The notes beneath the pieces are model-generated. The model did not search any database and was not told where the DNA came from. It worked only from the letters and a program-made list of their open reading frames with translations. A program made the position numbers and the translations under genes. From Opeltia flavorubescens (taxonomy: Eukaryota; Ascomycota; Lecanoromycetes; Teloschistales; Teloschistaceae), in the NCBI GenBank assembly GCA_000442125.1, contig KE546965.1, forward strand, positions 248,001 to 312,000: DNA of 64,000 nucleotides, given 5' to 3'. This document shows positions 24,411 to 49,736 of the stretch, piece by piece (the stretch's first letter is position 1; each line of letters begins with the position of its first letter).

Positions 24411-25555
24411 GCAAGACAAGGGTTTTGCAGATCGTCTCGTTGGAGATATGCAACAGGAAATGCCCATTTAAAGCTTAGAGTCACGGAATATCTTCGGCTA
24501 TAAATGATCGACGTGGACCCTGAGGCTCAAAATTCTTCCTCTTTAATAAAGTAATGCATTGTGATGATTGTCTCGAAAAGGGAATGAAAGCTTTTGTTTA
24601 GGATTGATCTATCGTGTAATGAGCTCCGGTGAGGGGCCGCTAAGAGCCTTTGACGTTGAATTCTCGATTGCCAAGCACTGCCCATTCCTATTAACGAGAT
24701 GAGGTAATAGATTCACTGACCGTGAGCACGTTCAGTCTACGAACACAGATAACAGTATATCATTTCCGAAGAAGGAGAGATGTGATGGCCAAGAGCTTTA
24801 CTTATCAACAGCCCCAACTTCCAGCGTCTCCTTCCCTAGAACGTGCACACGTCCCAAGGGATCTCAACCCAAGTATTGAATGCACAGAACTCTCATCCAA
24901 AAACTAGAACATTTGCATCTTAGTGAAGTACCAAGCTTTATGCACAACCGTCCTCTTATATGCACGTCCTTGGAGATTTACCTCCAAGAATCCCCAACAT
25001 AGGCTTAGAGTCATGGGAGATCTTCGGATACTCATGCAGAATGAGCTCCCTAAGATATATCTGACCTAGTAGAATACCAAGCTCCATGCACATGCAGGAC
25101 CTCCGTAGATCATTTTTTGGAGACAGACCTCGAAGAATACCCTTTTCTGGTTTAGACTCACGGGATATCTTCGGGTGCTTTCATGTACCTTCTTTCCTTG
25201 GAATGAGTCCATCCTTCAATTCACCCCAATCTCTCTCTCAAAATTTCACAACAGTATCAAAACATTCGAACAATTGTATGGTATCTATTACTTCAACTCT
25301 CCTAACACCAAACGCCGCCGCGAAGATGTTTTTCTCGCATAACCCGACTCCTCCAATAACGAACTATCAAGGGCGCGCAGGGACGAAATAAGCTTTTGCC
25401 CTGACAGGAGCTTAAAATATATTCAGCTTAGCGTACATGCACGAATGCATCACGCTGTTGGAGATAAGGCTCGAAAAATACCCATCCTTGGCTTAGAGGC
25501 ACGGAATATCTTCGGACATGCATTGGCGTGAACCCTGAGGCTGAGTGCTGCATGA
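24411..25555. repeat. Four degenerate copies of a ~125-bp repeat
   Basis: Four units share the core GGCTTAGAGTCACGGAATAT followed by CTTCGG: about 24411-24535, 24915-25045, 25066-25190 and 25430-25555. Outside the core they also share, in order, an ACCAAGCTCCATGCAC-like segment, TTGGAGATA, CTCGAAGAATACCC and, in the outer two copies, ACCCTGAGGCT after the core. All copies are in the same orientation but irregularly spaced, and they differ by many substitutions and small gaps. No coding capacity is shared. This is an old local tandem duplication or remnant of a small repeat family. Confidence 0.7.
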
Positions 25556-37397: not shown

Positions 37398-39401
37398 ATG
37401 GAGTCACTGAATGATACTTCGTGGGACGTCTTAGTATCTGGTACAGGTCTTCCGCAATCTCTACTCGCCCAGTGAGCTCCTCGGCCCACTTTACCAAAAG
37501 AGGACCGTTTCTGACTGACGCGGTAGATGAGCCAGAGCCTTGTCACGGTCCGGCAAAAAGATCCTGCACATCGATCAGAATGATTACTATGGGGGTACAG
37601 AAGCTGCTTTCAGTCTGCAAGAGGTTGAAGCCTGGGTAGAGCAAGTGAATGCATGTGAGTTTCTTGCATAATACCTCTAACTAACAAAGCTAACCATTGT
37701 TGAAGCATCAGAATCCACTCCCTTTTCCCATGCCTCCATCCACAAAGCATCGTCAGAGGATCAGTCTCAAGACAGTCGACTCGGTTTCTCGAGAGCCTAC
37801 AGCATCTCTCTTGCCCCACATCTGATCTATACCCGATCGAACTTGATCCCAGCACTCGTCTCGTCAAAGGTCTATCGTCAGCTCGAATTTCTTGCAGTAG
37901 GCAGCTGGTGGATCTTCGACAGAGATAAGAACAGTCAAAAACCATACACCGATGATAACGCAGGTGAAAGCAAAGTGGAAAGAGGCGGCGAGCTTCGAAA
38001 GATACCCGGTGGCCGAGAAGATGTTTTCGCAGACAAATCAATCGATCTTCGCTCTACACGATCCCTCATGAAATTCCTCAAACTCGCCGCGGATGCCGAA
38101 GCTTACTCATCGGTTATGCCAGAATGGGGGGAAAGACCGTTCTCTGAGTTCCTTGAGACGCAGTTCAAAATTCACGCAACGCTCCAGGCACCACTACTCG
38201 CTTTGACTCTGTCGCCGGATCCTATTTCAAGGACAAAAGTTGCTTATGCATTGCCACGGATCCACCGACATCTGACGTCAATCGGGATCTTTGGTCCTGG
38301 TTTCGGCGCCGTAGTGCCGAAATGGGGAGGTTTGTCTGAGATTGCCCAAGTTGCATGCCGGGCGGGTGCTGTAGGTGGAGGATTGTACGTGCTTAAGAAA
38401 GGGATTGAGTCTATCGAGCTATCAGGTCCCCCTTCAGGCACTTCAACCACCGGAGAGGATGACCCGCTGTTATCGAAGATTCGGCTCCAGGGTGGGGATA
38501 CTGTTCGGGCTCGTTGGATCATCGGGACACACGCTACAAGCCCGAGGACAGCTGATCCTCAGCCAGCCCAACACAAGACAAGTGTCAACATCGTCCACTA
38601 CACAGCAATCATTTCCTCTCCCCTAACTCCTCTGTTCCCTCCGCCCGCCGAAGGATCCCCACCACCCGCTGGTGTCATCGTTGTATTACCTCCCGACTCC
38701 TTCTCCCTGCCAGCTTCCCTGGATGCTTCAGAGGTGCCATCAATCTATCTAATAATCCACTCCAGCGACAGCGGCGAATGTCCAGAAGGCCAATGTACGT
38801 ATCCTCCCTGCATCCTCATCCTCTCAAAAATAAGAATGAAATGATGATCCAAACTTATTGAATACTTATCTACATTGTCTGCAATTTTTCATTGAAGATA
38901 AAACATTACCTCTGACAATCTGAACTTCATTCCCCTCCGTTTGCCACGGTCTTCTTCTCTGCTATTTCTGTTTCTGGAGCTAATTAAGTCACTGCCGATG
39001 AAGGTGTCATCTACACATCCACCAATCTATTTCATCCTTCCGCCCCCGATCTCCTCCGCTCTGCCATCGAGACTCTACTCTCCACCCTCTCAACGGATAC
39101 TCCAGAACAACCAAAAACCCTCTGGTCACTAACCTATACGCAACATCACCAACTCCCATCTTCGCAACCAGACGAGATTTCCAACCACACCGATGAGCAC
39201 CATCAAACCGTTGATACTCGAAAATCAGGCATCATCTATCTCAACGACCTAAGCCCAAGCCTAGCCCTCGAAGACGAAATCCTCAAAGACGTGAGAGCTG
39301 CGTGGGAGCTTATCACAGCCGATGACGGAGAAAGTAGGGGCGCATTCATGCAATTCGAAGATCGGCAAGGGGCTGGTATGGAAGACGAGGAGGAGTTGTG
39401 A
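37398..39401 (+). CDS. Rab escort protein / Rab GDI family (Mrs6-like)
   Basis: Four exons: 37398-37471, 37536-37654, 37706-38794 and 38989-39401, giving 564 aa. The N-terminal FAD-fold-like GDI signature is DVLVSGTGLPQSLLAQALSR followed by SGKKILHIDQNDYYGG. Later motifs include SISLAPHLIYTRSNLIPALV, MPEWGERPFSEFLE (Rab-binding platform) and GLSEIAQVACRAGAVGGGLYVL. REP presents newly made Rab GTPases to geranylgeranyl transferase II. Length and the loops with acidic and Ser/Pro insertions fit REP better than GDI, which is about 450 aa. The last intron (194 bp) is longer than its neighbours, so an extra small exon there cannot be excluded. Confidence 0.88.
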
Positions 39402-39823
39402 GGAGTCATGTTACTGAGGCCTGCATTGTGGGTTCGCTCGCCCAAGAAGTTTCCTTGCCGCAGAGAATTTATTCATGTTCTTCTATGCTTGAGCAACCTG
39501 TGGCGGTAGACAAGGATTGACTTTCCTCCTTTCTTAACCACTTTGCCACCATTGGTTCCATCAACAATCCTTTTGTTATTATTCCAGCTCCCTTATTCCT
39601 TTTGTTCTTTTTAGCTCTTCTGTTTCATTCCCGTTCTTTCTTTGCGTGAACGTACCTATTTCCGAATTTCTTTCCCATATGTTTGGCGAGGCTGGAGTGT
39701 AGTGAGAGGGTTTTGCTGCGAGGTTCCCGTTATTGATTCTGATGAGGTGTTCGGCTGGCACGAGGGACATCGCTCGTCTGGGCGGTTATTCTTAAAGGTG
39801 ATAAGGCGACTAAGTGAATTCTT
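39402..39823. other. Intergenic region, 3' of the REP gene
   Basis: T/C-rich stretch (about 39530-39650) with no supported gene. Confidence 0.4.
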
Positions 39824-40258
39824 CTATGGACTTTCTGTGTGGTCTTCTTGGAGAGTGGAGGAGGGTTGTCTGAGGTCGCTGACTGGGTGCGACGATAATG
39901 GTGATGGGTGGATTGATCGAGGAGGAGGAAGAGAATGGCGATGCTGATGGCGACAGAGGACGGTATTTTCAGAGCGAAGGAGGCTGGAGTCGCCGTGATG
40001 CCGGTAACGCTCGTGATATTGATCATTGGGGGATTGCGGTAGTGATGAAAATCTATGGGCGGAAGGACGATTGGTGTTGGTGACGAAGAGGAGGAGGTGG
40101 ATGGCGATGGTGATTGTGATTGTGGAGAAGGCGAGGATGAAGATAGTGACGGTGATGGCAATGGATGGAGAAGGGGATGGGTAATCCGATGGTTTGGCGG
40201 TTTGATATGATGATGGTATCGAGGAGGAGGAGGAGGTGGTGGTGGTGCACGAGGACAT
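39824..40258 (-). CDS. Possible small Ser/Thr-rich membrane protein
   Basis: 144-codon frame from ATG at 40258. It has a Ser/Thr/Pro-rich start (SSCTTTTSSSSSIPSS), one hydrophobic segment (ITVTIFILAFSTITITIAIH) and a His/Arg-rich tail. An overlapping frame at 39730-40161 on the same strand also has a hydrophobic stretch, and the DNA is low-complexity, so the call is weak. No family recognised. Confidence 0.25.
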   Translation of the reverse strand: MSSCTTTTSSSSSIPSSYQTAKPSDYPSPSPSIAITVTIFILAFSTITITIAIHLLLFVTNTNRPSAHRFSSLPQSPNDQYHERYRHHGDSSLLRSENTVLCRHQHRHSLPPPRSIHPSPLSSHPVSDLRQPSSTLQEDHTESP

Positions 40259-40515
40259 GGTTGCAGAGTCGTTCTCGAAGAGTTCTAAAAATCTGGACGT
40301 GATATTGGAAACTATCCAGAATAGACTAACACCCGTCAATAACTTTACTCTCGTATAATTCTGGCTGACAATGGAAACGTGAGTAAGAAACAACGAACCA
40401 AGGGACGAGTGAAAATGATCAATTGTAGAATTTTAAGAGAACAAGGCAAAATAATAGCAGGGAGGAAGATCAAAGCAACCCAAGATGGTATTATAGAAGC
40501 GGGACTATCACTCCG

Positions 40516-40580
40516 AAAGACGCTATACCAGAAATGGTCTGTCCTGATTTTCAAAATCAGGACATTGCCAATGTTATACT
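40516..40580. repeat. Hairpin copy 1 (partly eroded)
   Basis: Starts AAAGACGCTATACCAGAAAT, matching the left arms of copies 2 and 3. The loop region holds a perfect inverted repeat with 11-bp arms (40541-40551 and 40553-40563) around a single base. The outer right arm (to about 40580) has diverged, so only the inner stem still pairs fully. Head of tandem unit 1. Confidence 0.75.
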
Positions 40581-40880
40581 AACACTTCCGGGACCTATAT
40601 TAATCCCCATCAGTCTTTCAAACTCCTCCATTTTCACCATAAAGTCCCTCTCTATACCAATTCTCCACCCTATACTTCCAGCCAAATCTCTAAAAACCAT
40701 CCAAGACCTTTCCCGGTAACCCATCCTAACAGTCCATACATTCTCCAACGACTCTACTACTTAGCTTTAGTAGAAACTATAAAAAAAATTCAAAGCATAG
40801 GTTCAAGTTTGTATGATTGTCAGCATGCAACTTCTAGCGGGACACGCCAGATGTCGCAATAGGTGTGCAAATGATATTCC

Positions 40881-40964
40881 AGAAAGAACGCTATGCCAGA
40901 AATGGAGATATATCCTGTTTTCGAAAAACAGGATATATCTCCATTTCTGGTATAGCGTCTTTCT
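40881..40964. repeat. Hairpin copy 2 (near-perfect 84-nt palindrome)
   Basis: Left arm from AGAAAGAACGCTATGCCAGA and right arm ending TGGTATAGCGTCTTTCT pair over about 38 bp, with one bulged base and one G/A-type mismatch. The centre is TTTTCGAAAA. It would form a long stem-loop in RNA or a cruciform in DNA. Head of tandem unit 2. Confidence 0.9.
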
Positions 40965-41429
40965 GTTATGATACTTCAAGAAACCATAGCAATCACCATC
41001 AATCTTCCTAGTTCTGATTCATTTCTATTCTATCTTCCTCTCCAAACCCATTCCTCCAAGCTATACGCCCAGCCTGACCTCCAAAAACCATCAAAGTCAT
41101 GTCTGTCTTCAGCAAATCGTCCTACGATGCATACACCATCGATTATGCTCCCAAGGCTATTGCAGAGCTCGAATAATCTCTCAAAGCAATTATTTGAGCT
41201 TGTATGATAGTCGATCTGCTCCTCAAAAGGCTTGAGTGATTGTTTGAGTTGATGTATAAGCTTTCTTCCACGTGATGAGCATGTCTTTGTGCGTCTCCTC
41301 GTTTTCATTTTCATGGCTCCTCCATCTCCTTCTCTTCCCCTTCGTCGTAATCATCATGACAGCCAGCCAGCTATCCTATATTTCCTTCCCGTGGTGGTGC
41401 AATATCACCTAACCATCCCCCTCCTCTCA

Positions 41430-41510
41430 AAAAGACGCTATGCCAGAATAGGAACTATATCCCAATTTTCGAAAACGGGATATAGTTCCTATTCTGGCAT
41501 GGCGTCTTTT
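41430..41510. repeat. Hairpin copy 3 (near-perfect 81-nt palindrome)
   Basis: Left arm AAAAGACGCTATGCCAGAAT and right arm ATTCTGGCATGGCGTCTTTT pair over about 34 bp with one mismatch; the loop is about ATTTTCGAAAAC. Arm sequence between the shared outer part and the loop differs from copy 2 (GGAACTATATCCC versus GGAGATATATCCTG), yet both arms changed together, so pairing is kept. Confidence 0.9.
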
Positions 41511-41815
41511 GTATCAACACTTCCAATCCATAGCAATCATGATTCGTTCTCCTCTCCCAATCCATACTTTCGCCTAATACTTCTATTCTAACCTCCCAAC
41601 ACCTGGAAATACCATTCATACAAGCCCCCCTTTTTTCCTATGTGATGAGTAGGTGGTTGTACACATACTCGTAGTTTGTTTTTCTATTGCTTCTTCTGGT
41701 CCTCATTCTTCGTCGTGATTTTATCGTGACAGGAAGCTAGCTAGTTATCTCATGATTCGACTGTCTCGGTGTATAATTCGCCTAATCATCTTTCATGCTG
41801 CGCCCTTCCTCCGTC

Positions 41816-42801
41816 TCCTCATCACCATCTGCATTCATCCAGCGTCCATCTCTCCACTGTTCCCATTTTTTTATCATCTTTCTCCTTTTTTTCCAGCCTC
41901 ATGATTATCACAATCACCATCGCGATCACCTATCAACTGCCCAAAATCGCCCTTTCCCTCCCTCTCTCACTCCCCTCCCTTCTTCCAATTACAACCACCA
42001 CAACCATCTCTCTCCCATACAACCCCAATCCATCCATTCCCCAAACTCTCCATAAACTCCACCTAGAAATTCTCACTCCCCTCCCTGTCCCTCAAACGCC
42101 TCTCCCCCGGCCCCAATCAACAGCCCAATCAATAGCTTCCAATCTCCTTGAGCGAACCTCAATTTCCTCGAAAAGGAAAAGCAGCAAAAACACTTCAGAA
42201 CCAAGGGAGCTTGAGAAAAAAAAGTAAAATGTTTTGGTAGAAAGAAGAGAAAGCCAGCGCGGGTGGTACTTCTCCGAGACAGGCTAAAAGGGTAGACACC
42301 TGCAAATCTTTTTTCAAGGGAAGAGAAAAAGAAGGATTTGGGGGGCTGAGAAGAACAAGGTGAGGCGGATGAAGGGTGATGCCTGGCCGATGGGCGAGCG
42401 CGGCATTGAGGAGGATGATCACATCTCCATAGAGAGAAAGTAAAGGTCATCAACATATCAGAGAGAGAATAGATAGATGATGTTGAATATCTCAAAACCC
42501 CTCAATTTCATGCCCTTCTACTACCCACATCATAGAAACCATAACAAAAGCATCTTGGTATATAACACCTAATGGCAAGAGGCCGAGCTCAAGCACTGTT
42601 GCTTTTCCCGATAGAAGAGTGAGTACAAGCATCATACAAAGCATGTTCGTCTCCACGAGTGACATCCCCCGCCCTTCCTTTTTCCCAGATCCAGACCCCA
42701 CGAGCCGAGACGATGACGGTCTTTCTGAATGAGTTTTGTGAGCATGTCGATTACAGAGCCTAATGATGAGGGTGGGTACATACTTCACACAAGCCCCACC
42801 C
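41816..42801. other. CT-rich non-genic stretch
   Basis: Pyrimidine-rich on the plus strand (about 41770-42130), giving a Pro/Ser/Leu-rich 152-codon frame at 41769-42227 that looks like a composition artefact. Positions 42490-42800 are probably the 3' UTR of the small minus-strand gene. Confidence 0.4.
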
Positions 42802-47288: not shown

Positions 47289-48623
47289 TTATGGAATATT
47301 GGTATCCTTAATGCAGACATCTGCCAGATCGGTGGCCACGTCAGTCACGGTATCCACCACAGCAGTGAGGTCTGTTGAACTTGAACTCCGCACGCTGTAA
47401 TTGTCCGACAAATCACCGATACTCTGTACCTTTTTGTCACGAATCCACGCCGAATCATATTCGCCGGCGTACTTGATGGGGTTTTGATACTCCTTCTCAA
47501 ATTTCTTCTGCAAATCAGCCATCTTACTTTGATCCTCGTGTCTTTGCCGCGTCGCATAGGTTTCAAAGGCAGGCTCCAGGGCGAATGCTGCCGCGCCTGG
47601 ACCAAAAGTCACGACAGTTGCAGCAATGGCACCTCCCACGATAGTTGTTCGGGTTGCCCATCTTCCAACTTTGTGCACCTTTTGTTCCCGTAGTAATTTG
47701 TCGCGACTGCGCTTGAATTTCTCGAACATCAGATTGTCGAAATTGCGACCCAGAAGCCTGTGTGCCTCTTCTAGTTCTTCATTTTTGCCCATTTCCTTCA
47801 GGTAATTCTCAAGATAGTCTGCGACGATTTGGCCGGCGTTGGTTTCGCCCAAGCTCATCTTAGGACCTCCATCCTTGACCATCTGCACCGATATTAAAGG
47901 TTCGAACCTTCTCCTGAGGTGTGGTTTGATGATCTCGAGAGCAGTCCCTTTGGACTTTGGGTTGAAACGTTTCATCGACGCTTGGTGGCTGTTATTGAGC
48001 ATAGCGCCAAAGAATTTATCAGCCTTCATCAAATGTCCTTCCCGGGCTTCCTCTGCGGCAGGGTTGGTGGTACAACCCCATTTGGTGGTCACCAAGGTAC
48101 AGTTGTCCCATTTCTCAATTCCAATTAGCTCTTCCAGCATACGCAAGTTTCGTACACCAACGCCGCCCATCTTCTCTTTTGTGATGTCATGCAAGTAGAG
48201 CACACCGGACAGCGTAGACCCAAGTTTGTAATGGAGATTAATAAAATCGGCGATTCTCGTCAACACTTTGACGTCCGCCACGGTTCCATCGTCAAAACCA
48301 GGGGAGTCAATGAGATGCACTCGGTACACGATGCCCTTCTGATTGAGGGTGAATATATAATCCTGGACGGAGTCGGTCACTGTAGAGTACAAATTAGTTA
48401 ACGCTTTTAGAAAGGGAGCAGGTGAGATACCACTATCCAAGTCTCCAGGCTCTCCTATAGGTATTGAATCTATGCCTGTGGCAATCGAGATGAAGGTACT
48501 TTTACCAGCTCCTGTCAAGCCCATGACCAGGATGTAAATGTCGCGAACTTCATCTTGTGGCGCCTGGACTCGCAGGCTCTTCTGTGACAGTGGGACGCCT
48601 CGAGACGTGTTTTGATTTGACAT
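47289..48623 (-). CDS. AIG1/TRAFAC-like GTPase, P-loop protein
   Basis: Two exons, 48623-48431 and 48379-47289, giving 427 aa from the ATG at 48623; the 51-bp intron (branch TTAACTAA, acceptor TCTACAG) is a multiple of three and stop-free, so it hides in an uninterrupted frame. G1 is VMGLTGAGKSTFI, switch II/G3 is LIDSPGFDDG, and G4 appears as TTKWG in place of NKxD. The G domain spans about 25-245. A Lys/Arg-rich helix follows, then a small-residue hydrophobic stretch (TIVGGAIAATVVTFGPGAAA) that could insert in a membrane. Relatives include the AIG1/GIMAP group, with defence-linked roles in plants and animals; the fungal role is unknown. Confidence 0.82.
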   Translation of the reverse strand: MSNQNTSRGVPLSQKSLRVQAPQDEVRDIYILVMGLTGAGKSTFISIATGIDSIPIGEPGDLDSGISPAPFLKALTNLYSTVTDSVQDYIFTLNQKGIVYRVHLIDSPGFDDGTVADVKVLTRIADFINLHYKLGSTLSGVLYLHDITKEKMGGVGVRNLRMLEELIGIEKWDNCTLVTTKWGCTTNPAAEEAREGHLMKADKFFGAMLNNSHQASMKRFNPKSKGTALEIIKPHLRRRFEPLISVQMVKDGGPKMSLGETNAGQIVADYLENYLKEMGKNEELEEAHRLLGRNFDNLMFEKFKRSRDKLLREQKVHKVGRWATRTTIVGGAIAATVVTFGPGAAAFALEPAFETYATRQRHEDQSKMADLQKKFEKEYQNPIKYAGEYDSAWIRDKKVQSIGDLSDNYSVRSSSSTDLTAVVDTVTDVATDLADVCIKDTNIP

Positions 48624-49736
48624 GACGACGTACAATTAGGTGATACACAGTCTTGAGATGAAGGAAAGAAGAATTGGATTTCGTGGTAGACGATGTTGAT
48701 TATAGTGAGATCGGCGAACACTTCAGCCTACAGTAGCGATACGCTCGTTTTCAAGAAGTTGTGGATTACCCATGGTCCCGTCCAGATATACTGACAGGGG
48801 CACCACCTCAGATCAAAGCCTGGGGGCTGAATAACCTCAGGAGGTGCCAAGATAGATCCAGCCTTTCGATAATCTTGCAATTCCATTTATGATCCAAGGC
48901 TGAGGGCAATACTCGATCGAATCAGAGAATGCGGATAGGGAGGCGGTATTCTGGGGGCTGAGATGTAATCTGCAGGATGCATTTGATGGGTGTGAGGCAT
49001 CTGAAACTTATGAATTATATTGGTTGGGACAACATCACCCACACACCATCATCGCCGCACAAGGTGAAGATTAACATCGAGGCAAGATATCGAAACCGAG
49101 GATTCGATCCATTCTGCTAAGCAACGTGAAAATGAATGAACGGTGTACACACCATGAGTGGTCCTGGTCTTTGCCAAAGATGAAAATTCATTGACAGGAC
49201 TGGCAATTCTTAACGATGTAACCATTATGAATAGAATGACCTATCTGCAAGTCCTAGGAATCTATTCTCGTCTACACGGACATGCATTTAAGATCTCATT
49301 ACATCTATGATAAGAAAAGTCAAGGAGTTTCAAATAAAGTCGGTTCATATGGTAAGGTAGTCAAGCAATAGGGCTCAGTTGTAGTTTATACATAAAGTCA
49401 AATTCATATTTCTCGGCAACAGTGAGCAAAGCTCTAGGCCAATCGACCAGCATGCGCAACGCTGATCGTTCGCCCCTATTGGCCAAGACATGGGAATTTC
49501 TAAGAGGCTTACTGTAGATATGTGTTCTATCATATCTCCAAACGTTCGAGTATGAAGTAAAGAGTTCCTTCTTTTCTTAACAGCTCGATACGTCGATCAT
49601 AACGCTAGTAGACCAGCGCCCCATTATTTCCATGACTTCCATGATTCACGTGGTGAGAAGTCAAAGTATACATCCTCTACTGCAGACATGTTGTATTCAA
49701 AAATCCCCATAGATAAAAAAATAATCCATAGATTCC
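48624..49736. other. Intergenic region without recognised gene
   Basis: 1.1 kb, moderately A/T-rich. Short frames only. Promoter of the GTPase gene and 3' UTR of the hexokinase-family gene. Confidence 0.45.

Follow-up and report, generated by a model that had tools for sequence, protein, structure and literature searches.

The stretch analyzed here, referred to as the window, comprises 64,000 nucleotides from Opeltia flavorubescens (contig KE546965.1, positions 248,001 to 312,000), corresponding to C1:248001-312000 of a 34.4-Mb genome in 23 contigs, which the genome searches described below cover. At approximately 40516-41880 it carries a tandem array of three units, all in the same direction, with a palindrome at the head of each. 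Comparison of the second and third palindromes gives good support to concerted evolution of the two hairpin arms, each hairpin evolving as a unit. The explanation that we favor, with a probability of roughly 0.6, is arm-to-arm correction of a quasi-palindrome by template switching, which homogenizes the arms. The units and their hairpins are as follows.

40516..40882, + strand: unit 1 (hairpin 1 plus spacer); its spacer is homologous to that of unit 2
40515..40580, + strand: hairpin 1, in which the 5′ outer arm (40515-40537) is intact, the inner stem is perfect over 11 bp and the outer 3′ arm has lost its pairing
40883..41429, + strand: unit 2 (hairpin 2 plus spacer), from the hairpin scan and unit alignment versus shuffles
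40883..40963, + strand: hairpin 2, a 39-column stem, 35/39 Watson-Crick, with CGA at its centre
41430..41880, + strand: unit 3 (hairpin 3 plus spacer); the position of its right limit is approximate
41430..41510, + strand: hairpin 3, a 39-column stem, 36/39 Watson-Crick

Concerted change of the two arms

Copies 2 and 3 were compared on a gap-free alignment with 39 stem columns. Between the two, 27 pairs are invariant, five have changed on both sides from one Watson-Crick pair to another, three have changed on one side to G-U, and four lose the standard pair in one copy. A preliminary description of this DNA had stated that these copies have a common outer arm and that their inner-stem differences are compensated; this is confirmed, the 5/39 columns altered in both arms being Watson-Crick in both copies in every case (5/5). 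Inside one hairpin the arms differ from each other at 4/39 columns in copy 2 (a single extra base accounts for two of these, and a third is the terminal pair) and at 3/39 in copy 3. The same arm compared between the copies differs at 9/39 (5′ arm) and 8/39 (3′ arm), so that divergence is two- to threefold lower between the two arms of one hairpin than between copies of one arm.

The five sites common to the nine changed in the 5′ arm and the eight changed in the 3′ arm represent an overlap with P = 0.009, and the probability of a complementary letter at all five is (1/3)^5 = 0.004. Shifting the partner by one to three columns gives zero or one two-sided change versus five in the true register. 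Hairpins mutating independently were simulated at rates of 0.10, 0.12, 0.15, and 0.20 per site for each lineage, with 200,000 trials each; at each of the four rates the number matching both the observed pairing and the five compensated changes was 0/200,000. From the five two-sided complementary changes and this simulation we conclude that the hairpin is the evolving unit.

The inner stems of copies 1 and 2 reveal, by eye, two more compensated pairs. Four of the seven compensated changes that include these two by-eye pairs (three A-T/T-A and one A-T/C-G) have no route via G-U. Of the five between copies 2 and 3, four lie side by side in two pairs, an arrangement with a chance probability of P = 0.049. 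With the 5′ arm of copy 1 as reference, parsimony places the AT-to-TA change in copy 3, in both arms.

Structure of the array

The hairpin scan and RNA folding bear out the earlier claim of three same-direction units, each headed by a palindrome. Hairpin 2 folds at −66.4 kcal/mol (z −17.8) and hairpin 3 at −60.2 kcal/mol (z −14.1), with 0/200 shuffles as stable as either; for hairpin 1 the z-score is −3.4, and 1/200 shuffles was as stable. The stems of hairpins 2 and 3 are near-perfect over approximately 38 bp. The outer stem of hairpin 2 contains an additional A and a single isolated G-U, and outer pairing extends to about 40880-40966. Owing to the extra A, the 5′ arm of this copy begins AACGC and not, as first described, GACGC. 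Hairpin 3 is flawed by one U-G in the outer stem and two mismatches close to the loop. Copy 1 conforms to its initial characterization, having lost its outer pairing and retained a perfect inner stem.

The spacing between hairpins is 368 and 547 nt, which makes the array irregular. Homology was said to extend past the hairpin: outside it, units 1 and 2 (score 120) and units 2 and 3 (score 86) are homologous, with 0/300 dinucleotide shuffles scoring as well in each comparison, whereas the direct likeness of units 1 and 3 is not significant (63/300 shuffles scoring as well). Spacer identity over the alignable parts, gaps excluded, is 69% for units 1-2 and 76% for units 2-3, and this homology, at these levels, indicates an old tandem triplication that included the hairpin. 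A profile built from the three units found no further spacer copy in the window above the inclusion threshold. Of the limits initially given to the array (40516-41815), the left one stands and the right one is displaced to nearer 41880, a weak estimate, the profile having been built from the same units.

Occurrence elsewhere in the genome

The DNA search queries, a 185-base segment taken from unit 1, both of the other units, and spacer 1, matched nothing outside the array; strongly diverged copies would escape, as the DNA search is insensitive, a unit 1 or spacer 1 query not retrieving unit 2 or 3. Arm patterns of 24 and 25 nt, with three or fewer mismatches, gave no site beyond the array. The 21-nt outer arm, again with up to three mismatches, had seven matches, namely the array's five arms and two elsewhere (control, one). 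With at most two mismatches allowed, the 15-nt outer arm matched at 73 places, five in the array and 68 elsewhere (reversed control, 40; approximately 64 expected at equal base frequencies). A covariance-model search had been proposed in the preliminary description; one built from copies 2 and 3 and applied on both strands to the window and 25 of those 68 outside sites retrieved only the window's three hairpins up to E = 10.

Hairpin scores were compared with those of 46 further loci that total 225,714 bases and in a few cases overlap; 25 of them were chosen by the 15-nt match, nine lie around RNA interference (RNAi) genes, and 12 were arbitrary. The array scores 34.5 and 31.5, versus a best of 17.5 in the 46 loci and no more than 20.5 with one shuffle per locus. 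In 40 of the 46 loci plus the window, hairpins 2 and 3 are the only ones scoring 16 or more. The best hairpin outside the array (17.5) sits in a stretch of 11-14% G+C. Locus L064 (C12:700001-710000) is an AT-rich island, 10 kb at 11-14% G+C. Searches of an open literature library turned up work on quasi-palindromes, inverted repeats, and small RNAs, with no title describing the array, although such a description may exist.

Origin of the compensated changes

Duplication of the unit, homogeneity within each hairpin, compensated changes, and the lack of a second genomic copy in these searches are direct observations. The earlier description proposed, as their cause, either repair of one arm from the other or selection acting on an RNA stem; its premise of concerted arm change is well supported, and the choice between the two is not settled by one genome. 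We infer that template switching, and not selection on a transcribed hairpin, was the homogenizing agent. The outer arm is common to all three copies, from which it follows that the palindrome, presumably a quasi-palindrome of approximately 80 nt heading an intergenic unit, would be older than the triplication. An ancient triplication of this unit, at one locus, would have left three hairpins to mutate separately. During replication the nascent strand may fold back and copy the opposite arm, one arm thus being rewritten from the other; such rewriting produces changes on both sides, double transversions included. In copies 2 and 3 it would have been repeated or recent, and copy 1 would have gone uncorrected, its outer pairing being lost. 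The arms are so much less diverged within a hairpin than between copies that it is as if the last correction had occurred well after the duplication.

Precedents come from yeast and from RNA genes. In genes of Saccharomyces cerevisiae, inverted-repeat arms are homogenized with multinucleotide mutations (PMC8604942), and quasi-palindrome mutations are reported in transcribed yeast DNA (PMC3820800). In work on RNA genes, template switching can also fix base pairing in stems, and it is proposed both to generate RNA stems and to preserve them (PMC8794818); that paper rates its own strongest evidence for maintenance as circumstantial. In the array, three features lean toward repair over RNA selection: double transversions, changes at adjacent positions, and a strand preference that is not consistent. 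Likewise, the non-wobble intermediates (4/7), the adjacency (4/5), and the loss of outer pairing in copy 1 while its unit persisted favor arm copying over stepwise selection.

Several results weigh against template switching. Reshuffling the partners between copies 2 and 3 gives five two-sided changes in 12/500 cases, which reflects the limit of two sequences. The adjacency result is of borderline significance and comes from a post hoc test; moreover, a small shift is another possible reading of one of the adjacent changes. Between copies 1 and 2, conservation of the outer arm exceeds that of the spacers (69%), with 22/22 and 21/22 identities (P 0.0004 and P 0.004, respectively, against a 70% background); copying within a hairpin leaves this excess unexplained, so that exchange between copies or selection is needed. 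No such excess is found for copies 2 and 3 (18-20/22, P 0.06-0.32 at 75% background, spacers 76%). Finally, the outer stems carry two isolated substitutions, each of which produces G-U on the + strand, an outcome that selection on RNA would favor (n = 2).

The last two kinds of evidence, i.e., the outer arm of copies 1-2 being more conserved than the spacers and the + strand G-U pairs, are also what would be expected of a microRNA-like RNA (milRNA) or hairpin RNA (hpRNA) locus, a possible but doubtful alternative in which the array is transcribed, its stems are cut by Dicer, the pairing is selected, and triplication provides dose or guide diversity. The stems are very stable and of dicing length, the position is intergenic, and the genome possesses RNAi machinery, with Dicer_dimer matches at three places and Piwi-domain matches at six places in three separate regions, five of the six over the cut-off. 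In a re-analysis of fungal hairpin RNAs, short hairpins with <20 nt between the duplex strands are usual, and compensatory variation hampers the finding of homologues (PMC9757828). On the other side, no near-perfect trans target (three or fewer mismatches) was found for one 24-nt and one 25-nt arm segment, and the window is without an Rfam match at gathering scores. The strand preferred in folding is inconsistent among the copies, + being better for copies 2 and 3 and − for copy 1, and the four of seven changes lacking a wobble route need non-wobble intermediates. Template switching and selection might also act jointly at a tandem hairpin-RNA locus, the outer stem being a conserved processing or guide segment and replication copying keeping a freely diversifying inner stem paired; we consider this combination unlikely.

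Miniature inverted-repeat transposable elements (MITEs) and foldback elements are hairpin-forming inverted repeats. The array likewise forms such hairpins and differs in that it was found at a single locus, has no family, is homologous over the whole unit, and lacks a clean target-site duplication. It is improbable that the array began as a foldback or MITE that had inserted into the ancestral unit, survives as a relic, and was later duplicated together with host sequence. Its compact hairpin resembles terminal inverted repeats, and an imperfect direct repeat of 15-16 nt with a 6-nt exact core surrounds hairpin 2 (40871-40885 and 40968-40983; window-wide P 0.003, local P 0.006, post hoc). A check for target-site duplications, suggested at the outset, gave a mixed picture: this imperfect repeat at hairpin 2, a weaker direct repeat around hairpin 1 (P 0.07), and nothing beyond chance at hairpin 3 (P 0.72); exact repeats of at least 6 nt, however, occur at 18/300 random places. 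Moreover, no other copy was detected by DNA or pattern search, the former insensitive, and the compensated changes are left unexplained. A MITE family was considered and rejected, the genome searches having revealed no second locus, although strongly diverged copies could escape; with no clean target-site duplication at the copies either, the original statement that this is not a typical MITE is supported. Chance or assembly artefact is very improbable: small copy number is all that speaks for it, the hairpin scores far exceed those of other loci and shuffles, and the copies, being diverged, are no assembly duplication.

Genes and sequence features around the array

To the left of the array, on the + strand, is a Rab escort protein/GDI-like gene (open reading frame [ORF] 37681-38841; Pfam GDI, 1.9e-9), the top solved relative of which is Rab escort protein 1 (1.8e-10). 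Judged from the next open frame, the gene probably ends at about 39.4 kb. To the right, the frames scanned at 42.5-46.5 kb gave no Pfam match, and are followed by two ORFs.

47292-48635, − strand: P-loop GTPase-like ORF, 448 aa, with sub-threshold Pfam matches only
49.7-51.0 kb, − strand: hexokinase (1.4e-79)

By eye, the genes of the window seem to be interrupted by introns. This, together with the size of the genome and its Dicer and Argonaute domains, is suggestive of a filamentous fungus. A protein-coding reading of the array was rejected: none of the 10 open frames within or beside it has a Pfam match over the cut-off, nine being without any match up to E = 1 and the remaining one having three, all sub-threshold. 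The array DNA is apparently non-coding. The Rfam scan mentioned above and a tRNA scan of the window by ARAGORN (bacterial code) were both negative.

The array is flanked by a G-rich tract on the left (39750-40250, GC skew approximately +0.5) and a C-rich, pyrimidine-rich tract on the right (41500-42250, approximately −0.5), which are possibly divergent promoter-like tracts. A single 26-nt inverted match of low complexity links ~40095-40120 with 41907-41931. Elsewhere in the window, 24439-25515 contains four copies of a 59-nt repeat, three of them at 69-76% identity to the reference, with the common end ATCTTCGG.

Relation to known systems

The array fits documented kinds of sequence, to which it adds a compact three-copy case. 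With quasi-palindrome correction (PMC8604942, PMC8794818, PMC3820800), it shares homogenized inverted-repeat arms and clustered, compensated changes; it differs in having arms of approximately 38 bp in tandem paralogues, known from a comparison within one genome. As in the actively maintained long inverted repeats of Caenorhabditis (PMC1803023), the inverted structure is more conserved than the sequence, whereas the arms of the array are short and its centre is 3 nt. In common with fungal milRNA and hairpin RNA loci (PMC9757828), it has a short-loop hairpin in intergenic DNA and belongs to a genome in which Dicer and Argonaute domains are encoded; unlike them, its stem is near-perfect and in tandem triplicate.

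If template switching and selection did act together here, duplicated hairpins would gain new small-RNA sequences while keeping their structure. Covariation in a stem is usually taken as a strong sign of functional RNA. That of these neighboring paralogous hairpins has features which copying of DNA from arm to arm explains at least equally well, and the array, being compact, is a natural setting in which to gauge how frequently covariation appears in the absence of selection.
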